From contig NZ_CP125957.1 in assembly GCF_030064125.1 (NCBI RefSeq), positions 1,674,001-1,738,000 of the forward strand: DNA of 64,000 nucleotides, given 5' to 3'. A program made the translations under genes and the position numbers. Below are positions 11,963-38,506 of this stretch, in pieces. The stretch's first letter is position 1, and each line of letters starts with the position of its first letter. The notes beneath the pieces were generated by a model, which saw nothing but the letters and a program-made list of their open reading frames with translations, made no database searches and had not been told where the DNA came from. This stretch comes from Pseudomonas sp. G2-4. Its GTDB lineage: Bacteria; Pseudomonadota; Gammaproteobacteria; Pseudomonadales; Pseudomonadaceae.

Positions 11963-12017
11963 GATGGCGTCATGCTTCGGCTATATCGAGATTTTCGGCT
12001 GGGAAATGCCCTACAGC

Positions 12018-12035: not shown

Positions 12036-12075
12036 ACTATTTGGGTGCCTAAACAAAAAGTTCGACACAAAACCC

Positions 12076-12166: not shown

Positions 12167-12224
12167 AGGATGGGTTGTTGGGCTTGAATGGCGCCTTCTA
12201 TCTCATCCACACCCGGGCCTTTTT

Positions 12225-22621: not shown

Positions 22622-25600
22622 GTGAAGTCACTTCCCCTCGTCAGCATTGTCATCCCCGCGTACAACCCACGGTTTTTCGACCAGGCACTGCTCAGCGCCC
22701 TGGCCCAGACCTACGAACAAATTGAAATCGTTGTCTGCGATGATTCGCCTGGCGATGAAATTCGCCATATCGTCGAGTCTTTCACCCAGCCGGCGCATCC
22801 GGTCCGCTATCTGCGAAACCCTCGACGACTGGGGCTTCAGGGCAACCTGTTGCGCTGTGTCGAAGAGGCGCAGGGTGAGTTCATCAAGGTGCTGTGTGAC
22901 GACGACCGGCTGTTTGCGCCGAGCATTGCGATGCAGGCCCAGGCGTTGATGGATCATGCTGATGTCAGTGTGGTATTTGCGCTTCGGTTGTTGTGTGATG
23001 CGGGTAATTTTATCTTGCCGCCGCGCGTGGACAATTGCCGTTTTTCGCCCAACGACGCTTTGCTCAAAGGCGACGACATGCTGGCGATTTTCGAGAGCAC
23101 ACTGACCAACTTTGTTGGCAATTTCAGTTCAACGCTGATGCGCCGCGCCGATGTGCTGGAATTGCTGCCTGCCTTGATACAGGACGGTGCCGGTTTTGTT
23201 GCGGTGCTCGATTTTGCTTTGTTTGTCTGCCTGATGCGGCGCGGTAATCTGATTGCCTTGAATACCGTGTTAAGTATCGAGCGCCTCTACCCGGAGCGTT
23301 TGAGCAAGACACCGGAAATGCTCAAGGCTGCCAAGATAGAGTGGGAGTGGCTGGCGCAGATGCTTGTTGCGCGCAGCGGTGAAGCGGCTCCTGCCTCGGG
23401 GTGGGTGCGCTGCATTGATCTGGACAAAATCACCGATGAGTCTCATGCCTGGCAAGAGCTCTGCGTAACCCGCGTATTGGGCAACCGCAATACCGTCGTG
23501 AATGGTCGAGTGGGGGCGCAAAGTGAGAGTTATGCGGACTTCTATCGCGAATGGCTGACCGTCCGCCGGTTCAGTGAGGTGGAAAAACGCGTCATGCCCG
23601 CGCGCGTTGATAGTTGGCCGTTTCGACCGAACATCGTGCCTTTGATCATCGACGCGATCGGCGATGCAACGTCGCTAGCGGCGACGTTACGTAGCATCAA
23701 GGACCAGTTGTATCCAGCCCAGGCCGTGGTGGTGCTTTCCGATGCTCATTGCGAAGTGGACGAGCGAGTGCTGCAACTGCCTTATCAGGCCGATTGGCCG
23801 AGTCAGTTCAATGCCATCGTTCCCCAGCTGGAAGGCGCGCATTGGTTCTACCTGCTGCGAGCGGGCGACGTCCTGCGCGATTCGGCATTGCTGATCCTGG
23901 CCGAGCGAGTTGCCGGGAGGCAGGGCATCCTTTGCGTCTACAGTGATGAAGGGGCGTTTGTTGACGGCGAGTCCTTCGAGCCGGTATTCAAGCCGGATTT
24001 CAACCTGGACCTGATGCGCGCTTACCCTTATGTCGGCCGGACCCTGGCTTTCGAGCGTGAACGATTCATGGCTCTCGGCGGCTTCGAATCGGATCACGGT
24101 GAGCTGGCGCCCCACGATCTGCTCTGGCGGCTGGTGGAAGAGGCCGGCCCTCAGACCGTCGAGCATATCGCAGAGATCCAGGTCGAGTCGGTCCTGAGCT
24201 TCGCCCAATGGTTGTCGCTGCCCGAGGTCATCGATGGCAATGCCCGCTTGGTTGGCGCGCATCTGGGCCGTATCGGTATCAATCATGAGATTTCCCCGGA
24301 CACGTTGCCGTTGATCAACCGCATCAACTACCGACACGGCGACCGCCCACTGGTATCGATTATCGTGCGGACCGGCGATTCGCTTGCAACCTTGCAGCGT
24401 TGCGCCGAGAGCCTGATCGAGCGCACGGCCTACGCTCACTATGAAATCCTTATCGTGGACAGCGGCGTCCGGGATCCGGCCATGCTCGACTGGCTGGAGA
24501 ACATGTCGCAGCTGGGTGCGAGCATGTTGCGGGTGCTGCGTCATGTCGGCGAGGACAATGATGCAGCGGTGCGTAATTTCGCCGCTGCTCAGGCCCGGGG
24601 CGAATACCTGCTATTGCTTAGTCCGCACCTGATTGCTTGCGAAAATGACTGGCTGGACGAGATGATCAATCATGCCCAGCGTCCTGAGGTTGCGGTGGTC
24701 GGTGCGAGAATACTCAGTCTTCAAGGCACGATTGTTGGCGGCGGGCAGATTCTCGGGTTGGCTGGGCCGGTGGGCACGCCGTTCTACGGTGAGTCCGCGG
24801 CTTCGCGCGGCTACATGCAGCGTTTGCATACGACCCAGAACTGGAGTTCAGTCAGCAGCGACTGTCTGATGGTGCGCAAGCAGGTTTTCGATGAGCTCGG
24901 CTGCCTGGACGATACGTCCTTTACCTTCGGCCTCAGCGATGTCGATCTGTGCCTGCGCGCAGGCAAAAGCGGCTATCTGGTAGTCTGGACGCCTTACGCC
25001 ACGGTCATGAAAGTCGACCCCCAATCGACCGCTGCCCAGTCTGAAGAAACCCCGTTGGTGGAGCGCGAGCACGAAGTCTTTTATCGCAAATGGCTGCCGC
25101 AGATCGCCCGGGATCCGGCCTACAATCCTGCACTGAGCCTGGGGGCTTCCAGCTTCAGTCTGGAACCGTCGCTGCGCAACAACTGGAACCCGTTCTGCAC
25201 CCGCGCCCTGCCATTGATACTTGGCTTGCCGGTCAACGCCACCGCGGTCGGGCATTATCGTGTCACGGCCCCGTTGGCCGAATTGGAGGCCGCCGGACGG
25301 GTAATCGCCCGGGTTGCCTACGAGTCGCCTCCTACTGTTGAGATCGAGCGTCTGTCGCCGGACACGATCGTATTGCAGGGGCGCTACAGCGAAGGGGCCG
25401 CCGGCGATATTCTTAGAATGAAGAAATACTCCGGTGCCTTGCGGATCTTCGAACTCGACGATTATGTCGTTAAGGCGCCCAAGAAAAACACTCATGCACG
25501 CAACAAACCGGCCAATATCGAGCAGATGCTGCGTGAAGGAATCGGGTTGTGTGATCGCGTGGTGGTGACGACACCTTCGCTCGCTGATGCCTTGTCCAGT

Positions 25601-26194
25601 ATGCACAATGAAATCCGCATCGTGCCCAACATGTTGCCGCCCGAGCCTTGGGCGAAGCTGACCAGCCGGCGCAGTACGTCCTCCAAGCCTCGGGTGGGTT
25701 GGGGCGGAGGGACCAGCCACAGTGGTGATCTGGAGATCATTGCGGAGGTGGTTCGCGAGCTGGCAAATGAAGTGGAGTGGGTGTTCTTCGGCATGTGCCC
25801 GGAAGCATTGCGGCCCTATATCCATGAGTTCCATGGTTCAGTCGCTTTGACCCACTATCCATTCAAACTGGCCAGCCTGAACCTCGACCTGGCGCTGGCT
25901 CCCCTGGAGTTCCACATCTTCAACGACTGCAAGAGCAACCTGCGCCTGCTGGAGTACGGCGCCTGCGGCTACCCGGTGATCTGCACCGACACCAAGGCCT
26001 ACGACGGTTTCCTGCCGTGTACCAAGGTACGCAGCAACAGCACCGAGGAATGGATCGCAGCGATCCGCATGCACTTGGCCGATCCTGATGCCAGCTATCG
26101 GATGGGGGATGAACTGCGTGAGGCGGTGCTTCGGGATTTCATGCTCAGTGGCGATAACTTGCAGCATTGGTTGTGGGGATGGTTGCCAGACTGA
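22622..26194 (+). CDS. Multidomain flagellar glycosyltransferase (FgtA/Fgt1-like)
   Basis: A 1190-residue enzyme directly after flgL, the place of fgtA/fgt1 in other pseudomonads. Four modules can be read. First is a GT2 domain (about 5-225) with the acidic motif CDDD (92-95). Second is a degenerate GT2-like domain (about 335-510) with VYSDEG. Third is a GT2-like domain (about 574-800, RPLVSIIVRTGDSL). Fourth is a GT4/GT1-type domain (about 860-1185) ending in the nucleotide-sugar-binding block NLRLLEYGACGYPVICT. It starts at a GTG, 7 bases after GAGAG. Known relatives transfer deoxyhexoses to flagellin serine/threonine. With several catalytic modules this one could add more than one residue, which is inference. 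Confidence 0.88.
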   Translation: MKSLPLVSIVIPAYNPRFFDQALLSALAQTYEQIEIVVCDDSPGDEIRHIVESFTQPAHPVRYLRNPRRLGLQGNLLRCVEEAQGEFIKVLCDDDRLFAPSIAMQAQALMDHADVSVVFALRLLCDAGNFILPPRVDNCRFSPNDALLKGDDMLAIFESTLTNFVGNFSSTLMRRADVLELLPALIQDGAGFVAVLDFALFVCLMRRGNLIALNTVLSIERLYPERLSKTPEMLKAAKIEWEWLAQMLVARSGEAAPASGWVRCIDLDKITDESHAWQELCVTRVLGNRNTVVNGRVGAQSESYADFYREWLTVRRFSEVEKRVMPARVDSWPFRPNIVPLIIDAIGDATSLAATLRSIKDQLYPAQAVVVLSDAHCEVDERVLQLPYQADWPSQFNAIVPQLEGAHWFYLLRAGDVLRDSALLILAERVAGRQGILCVYSDEGAFVDGESFEPVFKPDFNLDLMRAYPYVGRTLAFERERFMALGGFESDHGELAPHDLLWRLVEEAGPQTVEHIAEIQVESVLSFAQWLSLPEVIDGNARLVGAHLGRIGINHEISPDTLPLINRINYRHGDRPLVSIIVRTGDSLATLQRCAESLIERTAYAHYEILIVDSGVRDPAMLDWLENMSQLGASMLRVLRHVGEDNDAAVRNFAAAQARGEYLLLLSPHLIACENDWLDEMINHAQRPEVAVVGARILSLQGTIVGGGQILGLAGPVGTPFYGESAASRGYMQRLHTTQNWSSVSSDCLMVRKQVFDELGCLDDTSFTFGLSDVDLCLRAGKSGYLVVWTPYATVMKVDPQSTAAQSEETPLVEREHEVFYRKWLPQIARDPAYNPALSLGASSFSLEPSLRNNWNPFCTRALPLILGLPVNATAVGHYRVTAPLAELEAAGRVIARVAYESPPTVEIERLSPDTIVLQGRYSEGAAGDILRMKKYSGALRIFELDDYVVKAPKKNTHARNKPANIEQMLREGIGLCDRVVVTTPSLADALSSMHNEIRIVPNMLPPEPWAKLTSRRSTSSKPRVGWGGGTSHSGDLEIIAEVVRELANEVEWVFFGMCPEALRPYIHEFHGSVALTHYPFKLASLNLDLALAPLEFHIFNDCKSNLRLLEYGACGYPVICTDTKAYDGFLPCTKVRSNSTEEWIAAIRMHLADPDASYRMGDELREAVLRDFMLSGDNLQHWLWGWLPD

Positions 26195-26441: not shown

Positions 26442-27215
26442 ATGAAGGCAGTTATCTTGGCAGGTGGTCTCGGCACACGCATCAGCGAGGAGTCGCACCT
26501 CAAGCCCAAGCCGATGATCGAGATCGGTGGCAAGCCAATTCTTTGGCACATCATGAAGCAGTATTCCGCCCATGGAATCCACGACTTCGTCATTTGCCTT
26601 GGCTACAAGGGCTATGCCATCAAGGATTTCTTCGCCAACTACTTCCTGCACACCTCCGACGTCACCTTCGACATGTGCAACAACCGCATGGACGTTCATC
26701 AGAACTACAGCGAGCCGTGGCGCGTGACCCTGATCGACACTGGCGAAGACACCATGACCGGCGGTCGTCTGCGTCGAGCGGCGCGTTATCTGGAAAATGA
26801 AGAAGCGTTCTGCTTCACCTATGGTGACGGTGTTTCGGACCTCAATATCGGCGCGCTGGTGGATTTTCATCTGTCACACGGCAAGCTGGCCACGGTCACT
26901 GCAGTCCAGCCTCCCGGACGCTACGGCGCGCTTGAGCGCGATGGCGATAGCGTCCTGGGTTTCACCGAGAAACCACGGGGGGATGGTGGCTGGATCAACG
27001 GTGGCTTCTTTGTACTCTCGCCGAAGGTCTTGCCTTACATCGCTGATGATCAGACTTCCTGGGAAGCCGAGCCGCTGGCGGCATTGGCGACCGAGCAGCA
27101 GCTCCAGGCGTTTCAGCACGACGGTTTCTGGCATCCAATGGACACCCTGCGGGATAAAAACCACCTCGAAGCCCTGTGGCAAAGCGGGGAGGCCCCATGG
27201 AAGCAATGGGACTGA
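26442..27215 (+). CDS. rfbF: Glucose-1-phosphate cytidylyltransferase
   Basis: A 257-residue nucleotidyltransferase making CDP-glucose from CTP and glucose-1-phosphate. The N-terminal signature AGGLGTRISEESHLKPKPM and the YGDGVSDLNI metal-binding segment are those of RfbF. It is strongly conserved and recognisable over its whole length. It is the first step of the CDP-deoxysugar route and overlaps the next gene by 19 bases, indicating translational coupling. Confidence 0.96.
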   Translation: MKAVILAGGLGTRISEESHLKPKPMIEIGGKPILWHIMKQYSAHGIHDFVICLGYKGYAIKDFFANYFLHTSDVTFDMCNNRMDVHQNYSEPWRVTLIDTGEDTMTGGRLRRAARYLENEEAFCFTYGDGVSDLNIGALVDFHLSHGKLATVTAVQPPGRYGALERDGDSVLGFTEKPRGDGGWINGGFFVLSPKVLPYIADDQTSWEAEPLAALATEQQLQAFQHDGFWHPMDTLRDKNHLEALWQSGEAPWKQWD

Positions 27216-28279
27216 ACCCGGAGTTCTGGCGCGGTAAGCGGGTGCTGGTCACCGGCCATACCGGCTTCAAGGGCAGCTGGCTGACGCTGTGGCTGCAAAG
27301 CCTTGGCGCCCAGGTCAGCGGCTTTTCCCTGGACCCGGCCACCAAGCCGAGCCTGTTCGAGTTGGCCCGGGTGAGCGAGGGCATCGATGATAGGCGCGCT
27401 GACTTGCGCGACCTAGGCGCCTTGCTCGAAGTGCTCGCTGACGTGCAACCGCAGATTGTCCTGCACCTGGCGGCCCAACCGCTGGTGCGTGAGGGGTATC
27501 GCGATCCGTTGGGTACCTATTCCAGCAATGTCATGGGCACCCTTAACCTGCTCGAAGCGATCCGTCAGATCGGTGGCGTGCGCGCCTGTGTATTGGTGAC
27601 CACCGACAAGGTCTACGCCAACCAGGAATGGTTGTGGCCCTATCGCGAAAATGAACCCTTGGGCGGTCACGATCCCTACAGCAGCAGCAAGGCCTGCTGC
27701 GAATTGCTGGCGCAGTCTTATGCCGCTTCGTTTTTCTCCGCCGATCGTTACGCCGAACATGGCCTGGCCCTGGCCACGGCCCGAGCCGGAAACGTGCTGG
27801 GCGGCGGTGATTTCGCCCCTGAGCGCCTGATTCCGGACGTGCTCAAGGCCTGGTCGGCGGACGAGCCGGTGACGCTGCGTTATCCACAAGCCGTGCGCCC
27901 GTGGCAACACGCCTTGGAGCCGTTGGCCGGTTATCTACAGTTGGCTGCTGGCCTCTATGAGCAGGGGCCGGAATTTGCCGGTGCCTGGAACTTCGGCCCT
28001 GGCGAAGCGGACATGTGCAGCGTTGGCGAAGTCGTCCAGCTATTGGCCGAGCGCTGGCCGCAAGCGCCCGGCCTGCGCATCGAACCGAGCGACTTACATG
28101 AGGCTGGCCTGCTGCGCCTGGACAGCAGCCGCGCCCGGCAATTGCTGGGTTGGCAGCCGCGCTGGTCGTTGCAGCAGTGTCTTGCCCAAACCCTTGATTG
28201 GCATTTGGCGTGGCAGAACGGCGACGACATGCGCCAGGTCACGCTGGGTCAATTGAATCTGTACCGAGGCACGTTGTGA
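27197..28279 (+). CDS. rfbG: CDP-glucose 4,6-dehydratase
   Basis: A 360-residue extended short-chain dehydrogenase converting CDP-glucose to CDP-4-keto-6-deoxyglucose. Visible features are the NAD-binding GHTGFKGSWL motif, TTDKVY, and the catalytic YSSSK. The ATG at 27197 is preferred over 27176 because GGGGAGG lies 6-8 bases before it. No rfbH (3-dehydrase) follows, so the usual 3-deoxygenation to a 3,6-dideoxyhexose is not encoded here. Confidence 0.95.
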   Translation: MEAMGLNPEFWRGKRVLVTGHTGFKGSWLTLWLQSLGAQVSGFSLDPATKPSLFELARVSEGIDDRRADLRDLGALLEVLADVQPQIVLHLAAQPLVREGYRDPLGTYSSNVMGTLNLLEAIRQIGGVRACVLVTTDKVYANQEWLWPYRENEPLGGHDPYSSSKACCELLAQSYAASFFSADRYAEHGLALATARAGNVLGGGDFAPERLIPDVLKAWSADEPVTLRYPQAVRPWQHALEPLAGYLQLAAGLYEQGPEFAGAWNFGPGEADMCSVGEVVQLLAERWPQAPGLRIEPSDLHEAGLLRLDSSRARQLLGWQPRWSLQQCLAQTLDWHLAWQNGDDMRQVTLGQLNLYRGTL

Positions 28280-28836
28280 GCGAGTTCGCATTGAAGGCAT
28301 TGCCGCTAGCCAGCTTGTTCAGCGTCCAGCACAAGCGCTTCGAAGACCAGCGCGGACATTTCGCCCGGTTGTTCTGCGAAGGCAGCCTGAACGCGTTCGG
28401 CCAGCCGTTTCATATCCGTCAGATCAACCATTCCTGCACCCGGGAGCGGGGCAGCGTGCGCGGCCTGCATTACCAGAATGCGGCGCAACCGGAAGCCAAG
28501 CTGATCACCTGCCTGCGCGGTGAGGTCTGGGACGTGGCCGTGGATCTACGACCCGATTCCGAAACCTTCCTGCATTGGCATGCCGAGCACCTGAAAGCTG
28601 GCGATGGTCGCAGCCTGTTGATCCCGGCCGGGTTCGCCCATGGCTTCCAGACCCTCACCGACGATGCCGAACTGCTTTACTTGCATAGCGCCGATTACGC
28701 CCCAGAGCACGAGGGCGGTCTGTCGGTGAATGATCCGCGGCTGGCGATTGCCTGGCCACTGCCTGTCAATAATCTGTCGAGCCGGGATAGCAACCATCCG
28801 TTGCTCGACGAGCGTTTCGCTGGAGTGCGTCTATGA
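28276..28836 (+). CDS. RmlC-like sugar epimerase
   Basis: A 186-residue cupin of the dTDP-4-dehydrorhamnose 3,5-epimerase family. The catalytic histidine is in VRGLHYQ (His65), and the LLYLHSADYAPEHE segment corresponds to the family's second active-site block. It starts at a GTG that overlaps the rfbG TGA stop. Beside rfbFG its substrate is more likely a CDP-4-keto-6-deoxyhexose than a dTDP sugar. Whether it inverts C3, C5 or both cannot be read from the sequence. Confidence 0.9.
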   Translation: MSEFALKALPLASLFSVQHKRFEDQRGHFARLFCEGSLNAFGQPFHIRQINHSCTRERGSVRGLHYQNAAQPEAKLITCLRGEVWDVAVDLRPDSETFLHWHAEHLKAGDGRSLLIPAGFAHGFQTLTDDAELLYLHSADYAPEHEGGLSVNDPRLAIAWPLPVNNLSSRDSNHPLLDERFAGVRL

Positions 28837-30059
28837 ACTGCCGAGGTTGCGGGACTGCCCTGGCCTTGCCATTGATTGACCTCGGCACTTCGCCGCCGTC
28901 CAATGCCTATGTGCGAGCCGACCAATTGGATCAGGCCGAGCAGTGGGTGCCGCTCAAGGTCGCCGTGTGCCAGCAGTGTTGGTTGGTTCAGACTGAGGAT
29001 TACACCCGCGCCGACACGCTGTTCGACGCCGAGTATGCCTATTTCAGTTCGTTCTCCAGCACTTGGCTGGCCCATGCTGAACGCTATGTGGCCGAGATGG
29101 TCGAGCGCTTCGATCTGAACGCCGACAGCCGTGTGGTGGAAATCGCCGCTAACGACGGTTACCTGTTGCAGTACGTAGCCAGGCGCGGCATCCCGTGCCT
29201 GGGGGTCGAGCCGACCCGCAGCACCGCCGAGGCGGCTCGCGCCAAAGGCCTGGAGATTCGCGAACTGTTCTTTGGCCGCGAAACGGCTTTGCAATTGAAG
29301 AGTGAAGGCCGGGCTGCCGATCTGATGGCGGCCAATAATGTGCTGGCCCATGTGCCGGACATCAATGATTTCCTCGCCGGTTTCGCCACGCTGCTGAAAT
29401 CAACGGGGGTGGCCACGTTCGAGTTTCCACAGCTACTGACGCTGATGGCCGGGCAGCAGTTCGATACGCTCTATCATGAACACTTTTCCTATCTGTCGCT
29501 CACGGCGGTGCAGACCCTGTGTGAGCGCAATGGCCTGGAGGTGTTCGACGTCAGCCAACTGTCGACCCACGGCGGTTCGTTGCGGGTGTTTGTCCAACGT
29601 GCCGATGGTATTCGTCGTCCGGTACAGGTCACGGTACAGCAGCAATTGCAGGCTGAACTGGATGCGGGCGTGAAAACCACCGCGTACTACGCCACCTTGG
29701 CGCCGGCTGCCGAGGCCATCAAGCATGGCTTGCTGCGCTTTCTGTTGCAGGCCAAGGCCGATGGCAAGCGTGTGGTCGGTTATGGCGCGGCGGCCAAGGG
29801 CAACACGTTGCTCAACTACGCTGGGGTCAAGCCTGACCTGTTGGCCTGGGTGGCGGACGCCAACCCGCACAAACAGGGCAAGTATTTGCCGGGCAGCCGG
29901 ATTCCCATCGTGTCGCCCGAGCGTATCGCGGCAGAGAAACCCGATTACGTCCTCGTCCTTCCTTGGAACTTGCTGAGCGAAGTTGGCCAGCAGTTGGCTG
30001 AGGTTCGCCAATGGGGCGGGCAATTCGTCATCGCGGTGCCTGAGTTGACGGTGCTATGA
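28833..30059 (+). CDS. Sugar C-methyltransferase (TylC3-like)
   Basis: A 408-residue SAM-dependent enzyme in the three-part architecture of NDP-4-keto-sugar 3-C-methyltransferases. It has an N-terminal zinc-binding domain with Cys3, Cys6, Cys46 and Cys49, a central Rossmann methyltransferase domain (VVEIAANDGYLLQYV), and a C-terminal Rossmann-like domain (VVGYGAAAKGNTLLNY, then NPHKQGKYLPGSRIP). The family adds a methyl branch alpha to a C4 ketone, so a 3-C-methyl sugar is expected here. It overlaps the epimerase gene by 4 bases (ATGA). Confidence 0.9.
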   Translation: MNCRGCGTALALPLIDLGTSPPSNAYVRADQLDQAEQWVPLKVAVCQQCWLVQTEDYTRADTLFDAEYAYFSSFSSTWLAHAERYVAEMVERFDLNADSRVVEIAANDGYLLQYVARRGIPCLGVEPTRSTAEAARAKGLEIRELFFGRETALQLKSEGRAADLMAANNVLAHVPDINDFLAGFATLLKSTGVATFEFPQLLTLMAGQQFDTLYHEHFSYLSLTAVQTLCERNGLEVFDVSQLSTHGGSLRVFVQRADGIRRPVQVTVQQQLQAELDAGVKTTAYYATLAPAAEAIKHGLLRFLLQAKADGKRVVGYGAAAKGNTLLNYAGVKPDLLAWVADANPHKQGKYLPGSRIPIVSPERIAAEKPDYVLVLPWNLLSEVGQQLAEVRQWGGQFVIAVPELTVL

Positions 30060-30913
30060 AGGTTTTAGTGACCGGAGCCACCGGGTTTGTCGGCCGTCAT
30101 CTGGTTGCGGCCTTGCTCGCTCGCGGTTGCCAGGTTCGAGCAGTCGCGCGCCGGTTTGAGCCGGCCAGGGCATTGCCCTGGTTCGACCAAGTTGAATTCG
30201 TCGCGGCCGATGTCCACGCGGAAGAATTGGACGTCGTTGCGTTGACCGAGGGGGTCGATGCCTTGGCGCATCTGGCGTGGCCGGGACTGCCGAATTACCA
30301 GGCACTGTTTCATTTCGAACACAACTTGATGGCCGACTATCAGTTCATCAAACAGGCCGTTCTGGCGGGGGTCGGGCAGGTGCTGGTGACTGGCACCTGT
30401 TTCGAATACGGCCTGCAAAGCGGGCCACTCGACGAACAGACTGCGCCGCAACCGGCCAACCCTTATGGGTTGGCAAAAAATACCTTGCGCCTGTTTCTTG
30501 AACACTTGCAACGCGAGCACCCGTTTACCCTGCAGTGGGCACGTTTGTTCTACCTGCACGGCGCCGGCCAGAACCCTAACAGCCTGCTCGCGGCGCTGGA
30601 CCGGGCCATCGATGCCCAAGCCTCGGTATTCGATATGTCCGGGGGCGAGCAACTGCGCGATTACCTGGCAATCGAAACAGCCACTGCTTATCTGGCGGGT
30701 CTGCTGTCGCGGCGCGAATTCAATGGTGTCGTCAATTGCTCAAGTGGCGAACCGGTGTCGGTTCGCGCGCTTGTAGAAGCGCGGCTGCGTGAGCGTGGCG
30801 CGGCCATTCGCCTGAACCTGGGCCATTATCCCTATCCGACTCACGAACCCATGGCGTTCTGGGGCGTGGCCGAACGTTTGCACACCTTGTTGGGAGCCGA
30901 ACATGATGCGTGA
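30056..30913 (+). CDS. NAD-dependent epimerase/ketoreductase (SDR)
   Basis: A 285-residue extended short-chain dehydrogenase with the cofactor motif GATGFVG at the N-terminus, TGTCFEYG, and the catalytic PYGLAK (Tyr-x3-Lys). By position it is the best candidate for the 4-ketoreductase that finishes the CDP sugar, though an epimerase role is possible. It overlaps both neighbours (4 and 11 bases), so the cassette is tightly coupled. Confidence 0.9.
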   Translation: MKVLVTGATGFVGRHLVAALLARGCQVRAVARRFEPARALPWFDQVEFVAADVHAEELDVVALTEGVDALAHLAWPGLPNYQALFHFEHNLMADYQFIKQAVLAGVGQVLVTGTCFEYGLQSGPLDEQTAPQPANPYGLAKNTLRLFLEHLQREHPFTLQWARLFYLHGAGQNPNSLLAALDRAIDAQASVFDMSGGEQLRDYLAIETATAYLAGLLSRREFNGVVNCSSGEPVSVRALVEARLRERGAAIRLNLGHYPYPTHEPMAFWGVAERLHTLLGAEHDA

Positions 30914-31973
30914 GCTGTACCGGGCCACCAGTCTTCCGGTTCTGCAGAACCGTACCTTCGCCGATGAGCAGTCGGCCAGAGCCTCGGCGAGTGCCGATAT
31001 GGTCCTGGTCCAGGACGAAGTGAGCGGGTTGGTTTTCAATCGGGCATTCGATGCGGACAAACTCAGCTATGACAGCGACTACCAGAATGAACAGGCTCAT
31101 TCCGGTCAGTTCCAGCAGCATCTCGCTGACGTGGAAGGCATCATCGCCCGGCATTTCAGCGGCCAGGAACTGATCGAAGTCGGTTGTGGCAAAGGCTATT
31201 TCCTGGAGCTGCTCAAAGAGCGGGGCTATGCCATCACCGGCATCGACCCTGCTTATGAAGGCGGCAACGCCGACGTGATCAAGGCGCCGTTCACTCGCGA
31301 TCTGGGCCTATCGGCTGACGCGGTGGTGCTGCGTCACGTGCTGGAGCATATCCAAGGCCCGGTGGCTTTCCTTGCTGAAATCGCGGCGGCCAACCGAGGC
31401 GGGCAGATTTACATCGAAGTGCCGTGCCTGGACTGGATCCTGGAGCATCGTGCCTGGTTCGACCTGTTCTACGAGCACGTCAATTATTTCCGCCTCGATG
31501 ACCTACGACGGATGTTCGGTACGGTACATGAGGCTGGACACCTGTTCGGTGGTCAGTACCTGTACATCGTTGCCGATCTGGCCACGTTGCGCCTGAAGCC
31601 GGAGCAGCCTGTTCCAGCCTTGCAATTGCCCGACGAATTCACCGCCAGTCTCGGGCGGGCGGTGCAGATCATCCAAGCTTCGCCGCAGCAGGGTTCGGCG
31701 ATCTGGGGGGCATCCTCCAAGGGTGTGATCTATTCGTTGTTCCTGCAACGAGCCGGTGTTGCAGTGGACTGCGTGGTGGATATCAACCCGGCCAAGCAGG
31801 GGCGATATCTGCCGTTGAGTGGGATGCGGGTTTCCTCGCCCGAGGAGGCGATGGATGCTCTGCCTGAAGGGGCGCATGTATTTGTAATGAATTCCAATTA
31901 CCTCGAAGAGATCAAGCGGATGACCGGTGGGCGCTACGTCTACCACGCCGTTGACAGTGCTTCGTTCCAATAA
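30903..31973 (+). CDS. Class I SAM methyltransferase with C-terminal Rossmann domain
   Basis: A 356-residue protein with a SAM-binding domain (LIEVGCGKGYFLELL, about 97-111) and a C-terminal domain that mirrors that of the upstream C-methyltransferase (GASSKGVIYSLF, then NPAKQGRYLPLSGM). The N-terminal segment corresponds in position to the zinc domain but lacks its cysteines, and the LVQDEVSGLVFN region looks like the ligand-free counterpart. Its target is probably a sugar or a glycan substituent. Two in-frame ATGs (30903, 30906) are possible starts. It may be a C- or N-methyltransferase. Confidence 0.85.
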   Translation: MMRELYRATSLPVLQNRTFADEQSARASASADMVLVQDEVSGLVFNRAFDADKLSYDSDYQNEQAHSGQFQQHLADVEGIIARHFSGQELIEVGCGKGYFLELLKERGYAITGIDPAYEGGNADVIKAPFTRDLGLSADAVVLRHVLEHIQGPVAFLAEIAAANRGGQIYIEVPCLDWILEHRAWFDLFYEHVNYFRLDDLRRMFGTVHEAGHLFGGQYLYIVADLATLRLKPEQPVPALQLPDEFTASLGRAVQIIQASPQQGSAIWGASSKGVIYSLFLQRAGVAVDCVVDINPAKQGRYLPLSGMRVSSPEEAMDALPEGAHVFVMNSNYLEEIKRMTGGRYVYHAVDSASFQ

Positions 31974-31988
31974 TCGCGAGATTCGAAA

Positions 31989-32726
31989 ATGACCGACAAC
32001 ACTATCCATAAAGCTTTCGAAGCCCAATGCCAGACCGAAATCGCCGGTCAAGGCCAAGACCAGAAACTGGTCGGCTTGGCCAAGGAGTTTTTCAACGAAT
32101 CGGCCCGCCACAAGTACAGCTACCATTTTTCATGGATGGGTCGGCCGATCATCCAATTGCCACAGGACATGATGGCGATGCAGGAGTTGATCTGGCAGAT
32201 CAAGCCTGACCTGATCATCGAATGTGGCATCGCTCACGGTGGCTCGATCATTTATTACGCCTCGTTGTTGGAGCTGCAAGGCCATGGCGAAGTGCTGGGC
32301 ATCGACCTAGATATCCGCCCCCATAACCGCGAAGCCATTGAAAGCCACCCGATGAGCAAGCGCATTTCGATGATCGAAGGTTCGAGCATCGATCCGGCCA
32401 TTGCCGAGCAGGTCCATGCGGCGGCCAAAGGCAAGAAAATCATCCTGGTACTCGATTCCAACCACACCCATGACCATGTGCTTGAAGAGCTGCGCCTGTA
32501 TGCGCCGTTGGTTTCGGTGGGCAGTTATTGCGTAGTGATGGACACCGTGGTGGAAGACATGCCGGCGGACTTTTTCCCGGACCGTCCATGGGGCCCGGGC
32601 GACAACCCGAAAACCGCAGTATGGAAATACCTTGAAGAAAATGGTGACTTCGAAATCGACCGGCAGTTGCAGAACAAGCTGCTGATCACCGTCGCACCGG
32701 ATGGCTATCTGCGCCGGGTTCGTTAA
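31989..32726 (+). CDS. CmcI-like SAM-dependent methyltransferase
   Basis: A 245-residue member of the family named after cephalosporin hydroxylase CmcI, which also contains rhamnosyl O-methyltransferases. The SAM-binding segment IIECGIAHGGSIIYYAS is clear, followed by GIDLDIRPHNR and VLDSNHTHDHVLEEL, which contains probable metal ligands. A cephalosporin role is very unlikely here. O-methylation of the flagellar sugar is the better inference. It lies 15 bases after the previous methyltransferase. Confidence 0.85.
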   Translation: MTDNTIHKAFEAQCQTEIAGQGQDQKLVGLAKEFFNESARHKYSYHFSWMGRPIIQLPQDMMAMQELIWQIKPDLIIECGIAHGGSIIYYASLLELQGHGEVLGIDLDIRPHNREAIESHPMSKRISMIEGSSIDPAIAEQVHAAAKGKKIILVLDSNHTHDHVLEELRLYAPLVSVGSYCVVMDTVVEDMPADFFPDRPWGPGDNPKTAVWKYLEENGDFEIDRQLQNKLLITVAPDGYLRRVR

Positions 32727-32777
32727 TTCATCCGTTTCAAGTCATTGGCGTCTGACAGGTTGTGGGGACTAGGAAAT

Positions 32778-35711
32778 ATGCAGGTTCGAAATACGCTTCA
32801 AAACAACGTGGCACCGCTGAGCGAGCGGTTCACCGTGGTGGTCATCTCCCACAACCGCAGCGCATTCCTGCGCCGTACATTGCATTACTACAGCAGCTAT
32901 CCGTGTTCGGTCCTGGTGCTGGATTCATCGGTGCAACGGGATGAACAGATTGCCCGGGATTTTCCATCGGTCGATTACCGCCACCTGCCCCAGTTCACTT
33001 ACAAGGGACTGCAGGACAAGCTGGTGTATGGCGTCAATCAGGTCAAGACGCCCTACATGGTGTTCGCCGCCGACGATGACTTCCTGCTGCACGATGCCTT
33101 GACCGAGTCGGTGGAGTTTCTCGAAGCCAACCACGACTATGGCCTTTGCCACGGCTACGGCATCATGTATTTGTCCTGCGCGACAGAAGTCTGCTACTTC
33201 CGCCGTGACCGCAAGGTGCACGAGGACTACGACAGCGAACTGGCCGAGGACCGGGTTATCCGCTTCATGGATCAATTCCTGCCGCCGTTCTATGCCGTGA
33301 CCCGCACCGATCTGCTGCAACAGTGGTACGCCCTGTTGCCGGCGGGCACCAGTTTCGAGTGGCAGGAAATCGGCCATACCTTTTATCTGTTGGCTTGCGC
33401 CAAGGCGCGGATCCTGCCGATTCCATTCGCCGTTCGCGAACTCAACTACGGCGGCTCAGAGCACAACACCAACGTGTTGACCGTGCTCAGTTACAAAGAT
33501 GCAAAAAGCGTCGCCGAGCGAGAGCAATTCGCCGAGTTCCTGGCGTCCCTTCCGACACCGCTGCGAGAGCAGACGCCGGGTCGCGTCAAGCAGATTGCCC
33601 TGGACAGCTTCGCGGCCATGGCCGACTGCCTGTTGCAGGGACGCTCACTCAAGGGCACGCAGATCATCCGTTCGACCTGGCTGGAGGCGGGGGGCGAGCC
33701 GGTCCGTTCGTTTGGCCCACAGCAATTTGTCGAAATGCCGTTCTACAATCAACGGGTCTTCGAGCTGCTGACTCAATTTGAATTCCTGCTGCATGCGATG
33801 CCGGCCGGTCGCCTTCAGCTTCAACAGTTGGAAGGCATCCTGCTGCGCCAGCATGAACTGATGCGCCTGCAACCCAACGACAACGAGCGCACGATACGCA
33901 GCCGGTTATGGGAGGCCCAGGGCCTTTACGCATTCAACCGTACTGTGGTCAAGCGCCTGGCCGAGTCGTTGAAAAACAGCGACGAACCAGACGAAGCGGT
34001 GAAATTGCAGGCCTGGACCGAGAGGCTGGATTCGGTGCCGGGCCAGCAGGATCGCCGGTTGCTGGAAAACATGCACTCCGGCCGTCTGTTGAGCTGGCTT
34101 GAAGCACGCAACCCCAACGCACAACAGCTTATATCCATTGCGGCTCATCTGGCCGAGCATCAGGGCGGCCCGCGATTTGGCATCCTGTTGCTAGACTTGG
34201 ACGCTGACATGTTCAAGCTGCAGGCCACCTTTGACAGCCTGGTCAACGGTCATTGCAAAGCGTTCAACGTGGTGGTCTTCACCACGGGAGACTTGCCAGC
34301 GACCACCTCCGTGCGCGACACCGTGCACTTCGTCAAAGTCAGCACCACCAATTATGTCGAGCGCATCAATCAGATCATCGGGCAGTCGACTGCTGACTGG
34401 ATGGTGCTGGCCGAGGCCGGTGACCAGTTCACACAGAGCGGCCTGTTGCGCGCCAGCCTCGAGCTGATTGGTGCTGACGGCGTGCGCGCGGTGGCCATGG
34501 ATGAAATTCAGCGCAAGGCTGATGGCAGCCTCACCGACGTGTTCCGCCCGGGCGTCAACCTCGATCTGCTGCAATCGGTGCCGTCGTTGATGGCGCGGCA
34601 TTGGCTGATTAATCGCGAGGTGCTGGCCCAGGCTCGCGGATTCACGCCCGAATACACCCAGGCGCTGGAGCAGGATCTGCTGTTGCGCCTGATTGAAGAC
34701 GCAGGGCTGGCCGGCCTGGCGCACCTGGCCGAGCCGTTGCTGATCTGCAATGCTCCGGCAGGTGAAGAAAATCCTCAGGAGCGTCAGGTGCTGACGCGTC
34801 ACTTGGCTGCCCGAGGGTATCGCGCCCAAGTCACCTCGGCACAGCCCCTGACGTACCAGATCGATTATCAGCATGCTGAACGGCCCTTGGTATCGATCAT
34901 TCTCGAAAGCCAGGACAACCTTGAGCAAATCCAACAGGCGCTGGTCAGTGTGCTGCAACGCACGCGTTATCACCGTCATGAAATCTTGATCGCTGACAAC
35001 CACAGCCAATCCGAAGAACTGACCCAATGGTTGGCCAGCCTGGAAGGCAAGGGCGACCGAGTTCGCATCCTGCACAGCGGCCGACGCCTCAGCGCTTCTG
35101 CCCTGAACAACTGGGCGAGTGCCCAGGCCAAAGGGGATTACCTGGTCTTGCTGTCGGCCCAGGTGCAAGTGATCAACGCCAACTGGCTCGACAGTCTGCT
35201 CAATCAGGCCCAGCGGCCCGAGGTGGGGATTGTCGGCAGCAAGCAAATGGACAATCGTGGTATCACTAGCCAGGCTGGGCTGGTGCTCAAGCCCGATGGG
35301 AGGGTGGCTTCGGTGTTCGTCGGCGAACGCAAGGACGCCAAGGGCTATCTCAATGGCCATCAGGCGGAGCAGAACTACTCGGCGGTGTCTGGTGCTTGCC
35401 TGATGATTCGCAAGGACCTGTTCGAAGCCGTGGGCGGCCTGGACGAAGAACATTTCGCCGAGGCCTTTGCCGACGTCGACCTGTGTCTGAAAGCTGCCGA
35501 CGCAGGCTATCTCACGGTCTGGACACCCCAGGCCCAGATGCTGCACGCCGGTACGTTCCCCGATGCGCCGGAGGCGGCCGACGCCTTGCGCGACAAGTGG
35601 CAGGCGCGCTTCGACCGCGACACCGTTCGCAACCCCAACCTTGCCCTGACCGACACAGGCTTTGCGCTGGGCACCGCCACAGCGGTGGATTGGGCGCGGT
35701 TGCTTGCATAG
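32778..35711 (+). CDS. Second multidomain glycosyltransferase
   Basis: A 977-residue enzyme with three glycosyltransferase-like modules. The N-terminal GT2 domain (about 18-240) is of the TIGR00180 type, with ADDD at 98-101. A helical linker (about 310-460) follows. Then come a degenerate GT2-like module (about 476-660) and a GT2 module (about 700-925, RPLVSIILESQDNL). The last two align by eye with the middle of the 1190-residue enzyme upstream. The ATG at 32778 is preferred over 32745 because AGGA lies just upstream. It ends in a terminator hairpin. Role: probably transfer of the modified sugar to flagellin or to the first residue. Confidence 0.87.
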   Translation: MQVRNTLQNNVAPLSERFTVVVISHNRSAFLRRTLHYYSSYPCSVLVLDSSVQRDEQIARDFPSVDYRHLPQFTYKGLQDKLVYGVNQVKTPYMVFAADDDFLLHDALTESVEFLEANHDYGLCHGYGIMYLSCATEVCYFRRDRKVHEDYDSELAEDRVIRFMDQFLPPFYAVTRTDLLQQWYALLPAGTSFEWQEIGHTFYLLACAKARILPIPFAVRELNYGGSEHNTNVLTVLSYKDAKSVAEREQFAEFLASLPTPLREQTPGRVKQIALDSFAAMADCLLQGRSLKGTQIIRSTWLEAGGEPVRSFGPQQFVEMPFYNQRVFELLTQFEFLLHAMPAGRLQLQQLEGILLRQHELMRLQPNDNERTIRSRLWEAQGLYAFNRTVVKRLAESLKNSDEPDEAVKLQAWTERLDSVPGQQDRRLLENMHSGRLLSWLEARNPNAQQLISIAAHLAEHQGGPRFGILLLDLDADMFKLQATFDSLVNGHCKAFNVVVFTTGDLPATTSVRDTVHFVKVSTTNYVERINQIIGQSTADWMVLAEAGDQFTQSGLLRASLELIGADGVRAVAMDEIQRKADGSLTDVFRPGVNLDLLQSVPSLMARHWLINREVLAQARGFTPEYTQALEQDLLLRLIEDAGLAGLAHLAEPLLICNAPAGEENPQERQVLTRHLAARGYRAQVTSAQPLTYQIDYQHAERPLVSIILESQDNLEQIQQALVSVLQRTRYHRHEILIADNHSQSEELTQWLASLEGKGDRVRILHSGRRLSASALNNWASAQAKGDYLVLLSAQVQVINANWLDSLLNQAQRPEVGIVGSKQMDNRGITSQAGLVLKPDGRVASVFVGERKDAKGYLNGHQAEQNYSAVSGACLMIRKDLFEAVGGLDEEHFAEAFADVDLCLKAADAGYLTVWTPQAQMLHAGTFPDAPEAADALRDKWQARFDRDTVRNPNLALTDTGFALGTATAVDWARLLA

Positions 35712-35737
35712 GTTTTCCCGTCTTCCCATCACTGCAT

Positions 35738-35760
35738 AGCCCTTTTCAAGAGGGCTTTTC
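35738..35760 (+). terminator. Terminator-like hairpin after second glycosyltransferase
   Basis: AGCCCT-N7-AGGGCT followed by TTT is a short Rho-independent-type terminator, 27 bases after the stop codon. Confidence 0.65.
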
Positions 35761-35787
35761 AGCAAAATAGCGTGACCTACGAGTCAT

Positions 35788-35832
35788 AACGCGCATCTTC
35801 ACTGTATTGTATTGACCGGGAAGATGGCGCCT
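35788..35832. repeat. Long-loop inverted repeat before the KAS III gene
   Basis: Within about 35790-35832 the sequence CATCTTC is mirrored by GAAGATG across a 19-base AT-rich loop, flanked by GCGC on both sides. It lies about 110 bases upstream of the ketoacyl synthase gene and could be an operator or leader structure. Confidence 0.45.
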
Positions 35833-35937
35833 GGCCCTTATCAGGCCCAGTGATAGCCCTTTGCACTTCCCGTTTGTCGGCGCCCCTCGATTCCTTGCGA
35901 GCGGTGGTATTGGGCTGTTTTTGATTGGGAAGCCGTA

Positions 35938-36864
35938 ATGATTGGCATAAAAGGCATTGCGAGCTACGTTCCTGTAGCCGGCGTGGACAATTACGCACAA
36001 GGTGCAAAATTTGAAAAGGATGAGGAATTCATCCTTGGCAAGATTGGTTCCGCCTTCTTGCCTCGCAAGGATGACGGGCAGGAAACCTCGGACCTGTGTG
36101 TCGAAGCGGTCAACGCGCTGTTTGCCAACAATCCCGGCCTGAAACGCGAATCCGTCGACGTGCTGATCGTTGTCACCCAAAACGGCGACGAAGAAGGTCT
36201 GCCCCACACGGCGGCCATCGTTCAGGACAAGCTCGGCCTGCCGACCACCGTGGCGGCGTTCGATATTTCCCTGGGTTGCTCCGGCTATGTCTACGGTATC
36301 TATGCGATCAAGGGGTTCATGGAAGCCGCTGGCCTGAAGAATGGCCTGTTGGTGACTGCCGACCCGTACTCGAAGATCGTCGACCCGGAAGACCGCAATA
36401 CCACGATGCTGTTCGGCGACGCCGCTACCGCTACCTGGATGGGGGAGGATGCCCCGTGGCAACTGGGCAAAGCCAAGTTCGGCACCGACGGTTCCGGTGC
36501 GCCGCACCTGAAGGTCAGCGACGGCGTATTTTTCATGAACGGCCGCCAGGTCTTCAACTTCGCCTTGCTCAAGGTTCCGGCCCATTTGCATGAGTTGCTC
36601 GCCGACTCTAACCTTCAAGCCAGCGACATCGATGCGTTCTGCATTCACCAGGGCAGCGCGGCAATCGTCGACGCCGTGGCGCGACGTTTCGAGGGCGAGC
36701 CGGAGAAGTTCATCAAGGATATGGTCGAGACCGGCAACACCGTGTCGTCGAGCATTCCACTGCTGCTGGAGAAGCACGTGCTCGATTCCGACTGGAAGCG
36801 TGTGGCGTTGAGTGGCTTCGGCGTAGGCCTGTCATGGGGCTCGGCGATCATCTATCGCCCCTGA
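35938..36864 (+). CDS. Ketoacyl-ACP synthase III family protein
   Basis: A 308-residue thiolase-fold enzyme of the FabH type. The Cys-His-Asn triad is complete: Cys114 (SLGCSGYVYG), His237 (CIHQGSA) and Asn267 (ETGNTVSSS). FabH-like enzymes condense acyl-CoA with malonyl-ACP. A homologue is present in the flagellin glycosylation island of P. syringae, where the terminal sugar carries an acyl substituent, so a role in supplying an acyl group is plausible. No ACP or acyltransferase gene is adjacent. It forms its own transcription unit between two terminators. Confidence 0.9.
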   Translation: MIGIKGIASYVPVAGVDNYAQGAKFEKDEEFILGKIGSAFLPRKDDGQETSDLCVEAVNALFANNPGLKRESVDVLIVVTQNGDEEGLPHTAAIVQDKLGLPTTVAAFDISLGCSGYVYGIYAIKGFMEAAGLKNGLLVTADPYSKIVDPEDRNTTMLFGDAATATWMGEDAPWQLGKAKFGTDGSGAPHLKVSDGVFFMNGRQVFNFALLKVPAHLHELLADSNLQASDIDAFCIHQGSAAIVDAVARRFEGEPEKFIKDMVETGNTVSSSIPLLLEKHVLDSDWKRVALSGFGVGLSWGSAIIYRP

Positions 36865-36883
36865 GCCACTAAAACCCGGGCAC

Positions 36884-36924
36884 AAAAATAGCGTCCAAGG
36901 TGTAACCTTGAACGCTATTTTTTT
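36884..36924 (+). terminator. Strong Rho-independent terminator after KAS III
   Basis: AAATAGCGTCCAAGG pairs with CCTTGAACGCTATTT around a 5-base loop and is followed by four further Ts. It is the clearest terminator in the window. Confidence 0.92.
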
Positions 36925-36947
36925 GCCTGACGCGAAAGCGAGACGCC

Positions 36948-38240
36948 ATGAGCGAGTTCTTTGAGCGCAATCTCCAGATAATCCAGCAGCGTTGGCCGGC
37001 CTTGGCTGAGCGCTTGTCAATGGAGGATGTCGGTGGATTGCAGGCCGACCTGGTAGAGGGGCTGGGGTCGACCTTGAGCGTCAACGGTATCCAATTGACC
37101 AGTCGACATGACCGTCTCGCCGAAGCAGACCTGCAAGCCGCCAGTGTGGCACTGAGCGCCTCCACTGTGCATGTCTACGGCACCGGACTGGGCGATCTGC
37201 AGAATCGCTTGCTGGAGCGGGCCGGGCTTGAACGGCTATTTGTGCATGTCCTCAACGGTGCGGTGTTCGGCCTGGTGCTGCAGGTGCTGGATCAATCGCC
37301 CTGGCTTGCCGATCCGAGAGTGGTGCTGCTCTATGCGGGTGATCTGGCGGAAATCCAACTGCCATTTTTTGCACTCCCCGCCGAGTTGGTGCTGGCTGAT
37401 GATTACAACGCCAAGATTCGTGATCGATTGATCAGTGAAATTCATCTGGACTTCACTAACCGAGCGTTCGACCCTCAGTCCCCTGAGATTGTCGAGCGTC
37501 TGCAATCGACGTTCAGTCTTGTGCGCAAAGATGGTGACGTTGCCGAGCTGTTCGGTACCTTAAGCGGGCGTGAGGCATTTGTCGTTGCCACCGGTCCCAG
37601 TCTTGAGCAGCACTTCGAGAAACTGCGTCATCTGAGCAAGCAAGCCGAGCGACCGTTGTTGATTTGTGTCGATACGGCTTACCGACCGTTGATCGGTCAT
37701 GGCATTGTCCCGGATATTGTGGTCAGCATCGACCAGCGTATCTCGGCGCGTCATCTTCCGCCTGAAAGCACCGACGGCATTGCCCTGGTTTATCTGCCGA
37801 TGGCCGACCCTTTAGTGATCGGAGCGTGGCGGGGGCCGCGTTACGCCGGTTACTCCTCGAGTCCTGTCTACCGTCAGATGCGGGGGCAGCTGCGCCGGGC
37901 CGAACTCCATGTGGGCGGCAGCGTGATTCATCCGGCCGTCGATCTGGCGGTGAAAATGGGGGCAGCGCAGGTCACGCTCTTCGGTGCCGACTTTGCCTTT
38001 CCCCATGACAAGACTCATGCAGGTTGGGGTGACGGTGACTTGGGCCCGCAACTGGGCGCGTCCAGGCATTGGGTGCTCGATGGGTATGGCCGGCGAGTCA
38101 AGACCCAGCTCAATTTCCGCAGTTACCTCTGCGAGCTGGAGCGTTTTATTGCCGGGCACCCCCAGGTGCGTTTCCGTAACAGCAGTCGGGACGGGGCAAT
38201 GATTGTCGGCACTGATTTCCACCCGGAGTATGTGCAATGA
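36948..38240 (+). CDS. Maf/DUF115-like motility-associated glycosyltransferase
   Basis: A 430-residue protein with the DUF115 (MptE-like) core found in motility accessory factors. The nucleotide-binding VATGPSLEQHF (about 213-223) and the GGSVIHPAVDLAVKMGA / LFGADFAFPHDKTHA blocks (about 323-358) are conserved family positions. In Campylobacter and Aeromonas, Maf proteins transfer nonulosonic acids to flagellin before secretion. No pse/neu/leg synthesis genes are visible in this window, so its donor sugar is uncertain. It overlaps the next small gene by ATGA. Confidence 0.85.
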   Translation: MSEFFERNLQIIQQRWPALAERLSMEDVGGLQADLVEGLGSTLSVNGIQLTSRHDRLAEADLQAASVALSASTVHVYGTGLGDLQNRLLERAGLERLFVHVLNGAVFGLVLQVLDQSPWLADPRVVLLYAGDLAEIQLPFFALPAELVLADDYNAKIRDRLISEIHLDFTNRAFDPQSPEIVERLQSTFSLVRKDGDVAELFGTLSGREAFVVATGPSLEQHFEKLRHLSKQAERPLLICVDTAYRPLIGHGIVPDIVVSIDQRISARHLPPESTDGIALVYLPMADPLVIGAWRGPRYAGYSSSPVYRQMRGQLRRAELHVGGSVIHPAVDLAVKMGAAQVTLFGADFAFPHDKTHAGWGDGDLGPQLGASRHWVLDGYGRRVKTQLNFRSYLCELERFIAGHPQVRFRNSSRDGAMIVGTDFHPEYVQ

Positions 38241-38506
38241 GCCAACTTCAAGGGTTGGTCGATGACGCCCGTGAATGCGCACGCCTGTTTCGTCTCGGAA
38301 GGGATGTTGAGGCGGGGTTGGCAATGGTCGCGCTGATTGAGTCGGCTCAACCTTTGGTTGAACGGATGCCAGGCGATGCCCCCTCGTCATGGAACACGCT
38401 ACTTGCCTTGATGCTGAGTGAGCAGCAGACGCAGAACTGGATCTCGTTAGCCGATTATCTTGAGTACGAGTGGGTCCAACTGCTGACCGCTGATCAGTCG
38501 ATCTGA
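38237..38506 (+). CDS. Small conserved-looking protein between maf and fliC
   Basis: An 89-residue, helix-rich, acidic protein of unknown function. Its ATG overlaps the maf stop (ATGA), so the two are translationally coupled, which argues that it is a real gene. No signal peptide, membrane helix or known motif is seen. Size and composition would suit a chaperone or adaptor for the Maf protein or flagellin, which is inference only. Confidence 0.7.
   Translation: MSQLQGLVDDARECARLFRLGRDVEAGLAMVALIESAQPLVERMPGDAPSSWNTLLALMLSEQQTQNWISLADYLEYEWVQLLTADQSI

Follow-up and report, generated by a model that had tools for sequence, protein, structure and literature searches.

A CDP-sugar cassette between flgL and fliC of Pseudomonas sp. 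G2-4, predicted to make a C-methyl-branched, vinelose-like sugar for flagellin

In the flagellin glycans of P. syringae, Fgt1 is reported to put rhamnose on serine, and the chain ends in a cap, an O-methylated 4-acylamido sugar; the glycan of strain B728a is given as 203-160-146 Da (PMC3927599). Here, we describe a stretch of 64,000 nucleotides (the window) from Pseudomonas sp. G2-4, whose genome is one contig of 6,651,895 bases. Between its flagellar genes flgL and fliC lies a cassette of genes for a cytidine diphosphate (CDP) sugar. The cassette is proposed to make a CDP-activated 6-deoxy-3-C-methyl-2-O-methyl-L-hexose that would be put on flagellin, a reading which we favour on balance. A nucleotide sugar of this kind has a precedent in CDP-vinelose, which we take to be the 6-deoxy-3-C-methyl-2-O-methyl-L-talose nucleotide sugar of Azotobacter vinelandii. 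It was reportedly described by Okuda, Suzuki and Suzuki in the 1960s, and we know of no role for it. The product in the window would probably be vinelose, which has the L-talo configuration, the C4 epimer of vinelose (2-O-methyl-L-evalose) or a close relative.

The island genes are all on the + strand, bounded by flgL (20962-22527) and fliC (38759-39610), in the order fgt1, rfbF, rfbG, rmlC, CMT (the sugar C-methyltransferase), SDR (a short-chain dehydrogenase/reductase), MT2 (a second methyltransferase), cmcI, fgt2, a KAS III gene and maf. RfbF (26442-27215; TIGR02623, 460.8 bits, cut-off 300.25), a glucose-1-phosphate cytidylyltransferase, would form CDP-glucose. Further, RfbG (27176-28279; TIGR02622, 474.2 bits, cut-off 278.45), a CDP-glucose 4,6-dehydratase with a GTG start and a possible internal ATG, would convert it to CDP-4-keto-6-deoxyglucose. 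RfbG contains TDK and YSSSK, matching the TDK...YxxxK fingerprint of CDP-glucose dehydratases (PMC8987622). In a genome-wide profile search, RfbF, RfbG and the CmcI family were each found in a single copy over cut-off.

The 4-ketone thus generated would enable two reactions, namely methylation of C3 by the CMT (28833-30059) and inversion of the neighbouring centre or centres by the RmlC-like protein (28276-28836, a predicted 5- or 3,5-epimerase), leading to the L series. The SDR (30056-30913), a predicted 4-ketoreductase, would then reduce the ketone; it belongs to PF01370, keeps the YxxxK and Rossmann motifs and has MoeE5 as its best PDB match. The CmcI-family O-methyltransferase (31989-32726) would methylate O2, and MT2 (30903-31973) would add another methyl group at a position left unspecified. 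Finally, Fgt1 and Fgt2 would transfer the sugar to FliC, where it would probably cap rhamnose, by analogy with the capped chain of P. syringae. The calculated residue masses are 174.09 Da with two methyl groups and 188.10 Da with three. From rfbF to MT2 the consecutive genes overlap, and the GTG of rmlC (28276) coincides with the rfbG stop codon; their translation may accordingly be coupled. The first-pass annotation had placed these same genes between flgL and fliC and had read a CDP-linked 6-deoxyhexose with C-methylation, further methylation and a flagellin context. All of them were located there with profile matches, and each part of that reading is supported by the gene families and the setting.

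A related cassette is found in the presumed producer of vinelose. In the Azotobacter genome G056, with a contig of 5,366,370 bases, three NifH genes score over 400 bits, and one of the proteins is identical at 272/272 residues to the PDB entry 'Nitrogenase iron protein 1', which we take to be that of A. vinelandii; G056 is identified as this species thereby. For another of the three, no PDB chain matched at the strict limit. The one PF08484 protein and the one RfbF over cut-off in G056 both lie inside a single locus, L113. On its + strand are fliC (13-1992) and a giant glycosyltransferase (2136-5909), and on its - strand are a TylF-type methyltransferase (6299-7075), PhyH (7072-7956), CmcI (7907-8701), an SDR (8727-9521), a hexapeptide protein (9518-10054), CMT (10003-11232), RmlC (11229-11789), RfbG (11786-12940) and RfbF (12856-13626). 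Thus, an rfbF-rfbG-rmlC-CMT-hexapeptide-SDR-CmcI row adjoins fliC. For each step towards vinelose (CDP, 6-deoxy, L, 3-C-methyl and 2-O-methyl), a family-level candidate is present both in the window and in L113, and we infer from the sequences that the L113 genes are those of vinelose. Genes and a role are thereby offered for an orphan nucleotide sugar, and both can be tested in A. vinelandii, itself a laboratory organism. Strains O and OP of this species, the parents of the sequenced strain, are flagellated, and A. chroococcum NCIMB 8003 has lost most flagellar genes (PMC4465626). Among four Azotobacter genomes, CMT is absent from the single one that lacks flagellin and present in two of the three with flagellin; this pattern, in a small sample of four, agrees with a role in flagellin.

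The order of the reactions may be approached through the exchange of genes between strains. A survey was made of 398 Pseudomonas genomes, and it covers the 127 that carry a CmcI-family gene (the window's included), all 127 sites having been read; further forms may exist in genomes lacking that gene. Four forms of the cassette were observed: CMT with SDR and MT2 (69 sites), CMT with a perosamine-type aminotransferase in place of the ketoreductase (31), CMT with SDR and no MT2 (14), and SDR with MT2 and no CMT (11). At the two remaining sites (L208 and L210), CmcI occurs without a cassette; in L208 (genome G312) its gene is in two pieces. None of the 31 aminotransferase cassettes lacks CMT and none has MT2, which is present in 80 of the 94 SDR cassettes. 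RmlC is retained in all 114 cassettes that have CMT.

The 11 cassettes without CMT (L201, L202 and nine more) carry a different RmlC and form a natural comparison set. In the two that were viewed in detail (L201 and L202), rmlC runs directly into the SDR gene. Their RmlC has a median identity of 66% to that of the window, against 90% in the 69 cassettes with CMT, SDR and MT2. RfbF, RfbG and CmcI stand at 89% each (90, 90 and 89% in the 69), the SDR at 70 versus 76% and MT2 at 80 versus 87%. Two residues past the conserved Tyr135 of RmlC, the window has His137 (codon 28684-28686, + strand). This residue is His in 114/114 cassettes with CMT and, in the 11 without, Thr in ten and Ser in one (L293, by eye); the RmlC of the dTDP (deoxythymidine diphosphate) pathway in the window's genome also has Thr. 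His is found there in the A. vinelandii protein and in one Peteryoungia cluster as well. It was considered as a general mark of C-methylation and rejected, distant CMT clusters having Ile (2), Cys (2), Met (2) or Leu (1) at this place.

The fewest label changes needed on gene trees, which were built under a simple model for the survey, follow the same division. For the presence of CMT, over 80 rows with SDR and MT2, the counts are 1 for rmlC, 3 for SDR, 5 for MT2, 8 each for rfbG and CmcI, and 9 for rfbF. For the class of the C4 enzyme (SDR or aminotransferase), they are 2 for CmcI, 6 each for CMT and rfbF, and 20 each for rfbG and rmlC. These counts were preceded by those on a first set of 94 loci (L033-L126), made up of the best 80 of at least 576 candidates in a genome scan for CMT, hence a top slice, and of 14 further Pseudomonadaceae loci (L113-L126). 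Here, the C4 enzyme is an SDR of the window's type in 50 loci, 33 of which also have MT2 close by. In 26 loci it is a DegT aminotransferase (MT2 near none of them), in 17 another SDR, and in one no C4 enzyme was recognised. The aminotransferase of L041 scores 272 bits with perosamine synthetase, 197-202 with ArnB-type enzymes and 120 with CDP-4-keto-6-deoxyglucose 3-dehydrase; being closest to the first of these, it marks a fork at C4. In this set, the residue at Tyr+2 of RmlC is His in 95/95 rows (L085 by eye); this set and the survey have genomes in common.

First-set trees were made of 50 rows, the window and 49 Pseudomonas loci (37 SDR, 13 aminotransferase); L077, on a short contig and without CmcI, was dropped. 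The fewest changes of the C4 label are 1 for CmcI (support 100), 3 for CMT, 4 for fgt2, 7 for rmlC and 10 for rfbG, and, in smaller sets of rows, 4 for rfbF (49 rows), 7 for fgt1 (43) and 8 for flgL (41). The mean identity of CmcI, taken like the other means over up to 60 random pairs and with nine divergent SDR rows left out, is 69.1% between the C4 classes, versus 89.8 and 91.7% within them; for rfbG, rmlC, CMT and fgt2 the corresponding difference is less than 3 points, and for rfbF 3 to 5. In 4/4 pairs compared, the DNA ceases to be homologous at the end of CMT, give or take about a dozen bases, and is homologous again from about 100 bases into cmcI. By the label-change counts, rmlC with CMT, and the C4 enzyme (with MT2, where present) with CmcI, behave as two blocks that are exchanged separately between strains.

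This pattern fits an RmlC that meets the branched intermediate and a CmcI that acts past the C4 step, and the co-exchanged genes of such a natural experiment may give a clue to which reaction comes first. It is possible, though in our view the less probable account, that the exchange reflects physical linkage only, with RmlC and CmcI carried along and no reaction order implied. Indeed, rmlC adjoins CMT and cmcI adjoins the head of the C4 gene, and the RmlC homologues of distant CMT clusters do without His at Tyr+2. Adjacency accounts for a part of the pattern, but rfbG beside rmlC, CMT beside the C4 head and fgt2 beside cmcI follow the exchanges less closely. The SDR, moreover, follows CMT in part, with its three changes.

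A wider proposal is made more tentatively, and we put it at somewhat less than an even chance. CDP-vinelose would serve as the donor when a branched sugar is put on flagellin, and the flagellin islands of Pseudomonas would be interchangeable kits for building sugars. Each kit would consist of a C3 block (rmlC with CMT, or another rmlC alone) and a C4 block (a ketoreductase with or without MT2, or an aminotransferase, mostly with an acyltransferase). Each block would bring the partner that suits it, the branch being matched by RmlC and C4 by CmcI. The four forms surveyed would then predict at least four flagellin sugars. For the aminotransferase form, a sugar resembling kansosamine is predicted. 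Related strains would, most likely, change the sugar by swapping parts of the cassette. Flagellin glycosylation is reported to be important in Pseudomonas for virulence and for surface properties (PMC8036289), which gives a cap that can be exchanged a broader interest.

The position of the C-methyl group depends on the CMT. It carries PF08421 and PF08484, the latter being found genome-wide in CMT and MT2 only, and was aligned over its full length to KijD1, TcaB9 and MtmC. Titles of PDB entries name the TcaB9 mutants Y76F, H181N, Y222F, E224Q and H225N, and the residues probed in this way are all kept in the CMT as Tyr68, His173, Tyr214, Glu216 and His217 (mapping by eye). With both domains and all five residues, the protein belongs to the nucleoside diphosphate (NDP)-sugar C-methyltransferases of the TylC3/TcaB9 type. 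In a tree of 13 rows, its partner is the A. vinelandii enzyme (60% identity, support 84/91, not starred). Vinelose is presumably 3-C-methylated, and the assignment of the CMT to C3 rests on this. If the enzyme methylated C5 instead, RmlC would act first as a C3 epimerase and a noviose-like 5-C-methyl-6-deoxy-L-sugar would result. The model for such a route is that of NovW, NovU and NovS, where C3 epimerisation precedes C5 methylation. In a Streptomyces cluster whose annotation includes sgcD and sgcG (L331), the C-methyltransferase has the same Tyr-His-Glu-His motif as the CMT, and the C-1027 sugar of this cluster is C5-methylated; the residues compared do not separate C5 from C3 enzymes. Nevertheless, the pairing of the CMT with the enzyme of the vinelose producer speaks for C3, and methylation at C5 appears unlikely.

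MT2 is, by homology and by its predicted structure, a nucleotide-sugar methyltransferase. Its best match with a profile of the TylC3-type family is MtmC (E 1.3e-15), and its model (mean pLDDT, the predicted local distance difference test, 88.7) matches MtmC with a TM (template modelling) score of 0.78. Glu191-His192 are kept, and Phe189 is at the site of TcaB9 Tyr222 (by eye). Homology, model and co-occurrence fit a second C-methyl and an O-methyl alike. CmcI falls firmly within the wider PF04989 family (320.6 bits). A mycobacterial member of this family methylates O2 of rhamnose, and the homology suggests a 2-O-methyl group here. On the question whether the 2-O-methylating VioM of P. syringae might also be of the CmcI family, a comparison at the level of the gene family gave a single CmcI-family gene each in the three genomes P. 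syringae GR12-2, ICMP 561 and P. viridiflava, as in the genome of the window.

The L configuration is suggested by RmlC, as epimerases of this type normally lead to L sugars. The protein, read from a GTG start, scores 192 bits with PF00908 and passes TIGR01221 narrowly (156.5 versus a cut-off of 155.75). Its His65 and Tyr135 align with the active-site regions of PDB RmlC proteins, in keeping with a 3,5-epimerase, and its presence points to a product in the L series. A D-series product, of the virenose or D-evalose type, would arise if RmlC acted at C3 only or were not needed. Some relatives of RmlC do epimerise C3 only, and NovW and a 3-epimerase of the D-allose pathway are among the PDB matches. 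The best of these matches are, however, RmlC 3,5-epimerases; the two catalytic-region residues are kept, and no surveyed cassette with CMT has dispensed with RmlC, so a D sugar is judged quite improbable. The sugar had earlier been called 'virenose- or evalose-like'. This wording is not supported, since virenose is 6-deoxy-3-C-methyl-D-gulose (PMC3539893) and evalose is likewise given as a D sugar (PMC12961483), whereas the cassette has an epimerase of the type that normally gives L.

At a threshold of E 1e-60, CMT is present in 44/298 Pseudomonadaceae genomes. The first-pass annotation had proposed a homology search for the same cassette beside fliC in other genomes. Run here, it found flgL, fliC or giant glycosyltransferases within the fetched stretch of all 54 Pseudomonas/Pseudomonadales loci among the best 80 of at least 576, and flgL or fliC in 47 of them; among the 14 further Pseudomonadaceae loci, 11 have flgL- or fliC-like matches. 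Although 24 of the 26 loci outside Pseudomonadales lie away from flagellin genes, it is highly unlikely that the sugar belongs to lipopolysaccharide or another surface glycan with a merely historical position in the flagellar region, as all 54 loci keep the flagellar or giant-glycosyltransferase setting, the cassettes of A. vinelandii and Denitromonas (L107) are also beside fliC, and the sole Azotobacter genome without flagellin is without CMT too.

Several observations weigh against a vinelose-like flagellin sugar and have to be set beside this. Neither the compared residues nor the 13-row tree separates C3 from C5 methylation. CmcI reaches 113.1 bits with the rhamnosyl O-methyltransferase model NF045824, whose cut-off is 400, and so falls outside that narrower group. 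The co-exchange of genes is partly expected from their adjacency. No paper on vinelose was found in a search of largely open-access literature. L113 has genes that vinelose does not need (the hexapeptide protein, PhyH and the TylF-type methyltransferase), and its SDR gave no match with that of the window, so the C4 configuration may differ. One flagellated Azotobacter genome is without CMT. Outside Pseudomonadales, just two of the 26 loci (L100 and L107) are beside flagellin genes, and in three of the 14 further Pseudomonadaceae loci (L120, L122 and L123) no flgL or fliC match was found. In the same literature search, no paper on a C-branched flagellin sugar was found by title or abstract. If the proposal is true, C-branched CDP sugars join the flagellin glycans of pseudomonads.

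The rest of the island has the layout of a flagellin glycosylation locus of Pseudomonas, with giant glycosyltransferases flanked by flgL and fliC. FlgL matches PF00669 (74.5 bits), and PF00700 at 20.8 bits, under the cut-off of 23. Glycosyltransferase 1 (22622-26194; Fgt1-like, 1190 aa) has GT2 domains near residues 8-131 and 575-796 and a GT1-like end. Glycosyltransferase 2 (32745-35711; Fgt2-like, 988 aa) has a GT2 domain and a TIGR04440 score of 117.7 bits (cut-off 70). The KAS III-like protein (35938-36864) matches PF08541 and PF08545 with its Cys114, His237 and Asn267 motifs present, and the Maf/MptE-like motility accessory factor (36948-38240) matches PF01973 (115.9 bits). An 89-aa open reading frame (38237-38506) overlaps the end of maf and closes the interval, ending at 38506, that had first been annotated; a Pfam search gave no match at E 1, and relatives occur in nine fetched loci (best identity 73%). 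FliC (283 aa; PF00669 and PF00700) is the predicted acceptor. At the six serine positions glycosylated in P. syringae, in unaligned numbering, it has Ser at 164 and 176, Thr at 193, Gly at 143, Ala at 183 and Asp at 201, and the sites are thus not simply conserved.

Among the 11 interval proteins scanned, no DegT aminotransferase (hence no rfbH) and no hexapeptide acyltransferase was found, no genome-wide search with rfbH's own model having been made. The earlier statement that rfbH, a sugar aminotransferase and a viosamine-type acyltransferase are missing therefore holds for the island only, because the genome has, at other places, four proteins of the DegT family that score over 300 bits. 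Within the island, a CDP-3,6-dideoxyhexose route is rejected, as none of the 11 is a DegT protein, and so is a dTDP-viosamine route, with no vioA-type aminotransferase or vioB-type acyltransferase among them. Outside it, PseB- and PseC-like genes lie near 1.816 Mb (1806001-1825000, L326), and two DegT genes are paired near 2.483 Mb (2478001-2490000, L327). In 45 of the 54 Pseudomonas/Pseudomonadales loci there is a second protein of the DegT family, which shares 27-31% identity with the cassette aminotransferase. In L041 (16784-21143), it follows fgt2 in a pseudaminic-acid-like set (PseB, PseC, PseF and PseG/H types). No such set is present in the window from fgt2 to the KAS III gene, and some strains may thus carry two flagellin sugars. 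Further afield, plasmids of Brachyspira hyodysenteriae (L334), Peteryoungia desertarenae (L333) and Tsukamurella tyrosinosolvens (L329) have rfbF together with genes for an RmlC homologue and for a CMT relative; L333 has two such clusters back to back, and one of them includes an aminotransferase as well as a CmcI-type gene.

The locus may finally be placed among the known systems. The N-acyl kansosamine made by Mycobacterium kansasii is close to the sugar predicted for the aminotransferase form. In the lipooligosaccharide cluster of M. kansasii, a glucose-1-phosphate cytidylyltransferase and a dehydratase-family protein are listed along with a rhamnose epimerase and a methyltransferase (PMC4403928); matched by description, these are what that form of the cassette would need. 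There, the sugar sits in a lipooligosaccharide (PMC4403928). With P. syringae pv. tabaci, the window shares giant glycosyltransferases upstream of fliC, a KAS III and, as predicted, a cap sugar with an O-methyl group (PMC3927599). The route in pv. tabaci is that of dTDP-viosamine, with an aminotransferase and an acyltransferase in a separate island, whereas the window has a CDP sugar and C-methylation inside the flgL-fliC interval (PMC3927599). The mismatch with the P. syringae route that the first-pass annotation noted thus stands for the sugar-nucleotide genes, but the contrast is smaller than drawn, the giant glycosyltransferases being common to both (PMC3927599). The CMT resembles TylC3, MtmC, KijD1 and TcaB9, the NDP-sugar 3-C-methyltransferases, in full-length homology and in the conserved probed residues. 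Those enzymes act on dTDP-deoxysugars, whereas the neighbours of the CMT are predicted to make a CDP sugar. From the A. vinelandii locus the window differs in its SDR and in having MT2, the extra genes being in Azotobacter only. The closest likeness is, nevertheless, to the CDP-vinelose of that species: a candidate at family level can be named for the CDP carrier and for each of the 6-deoxy, C-methyl and O-methyl steps, and the cassette of the presumed producer, too, lies beside fliC.

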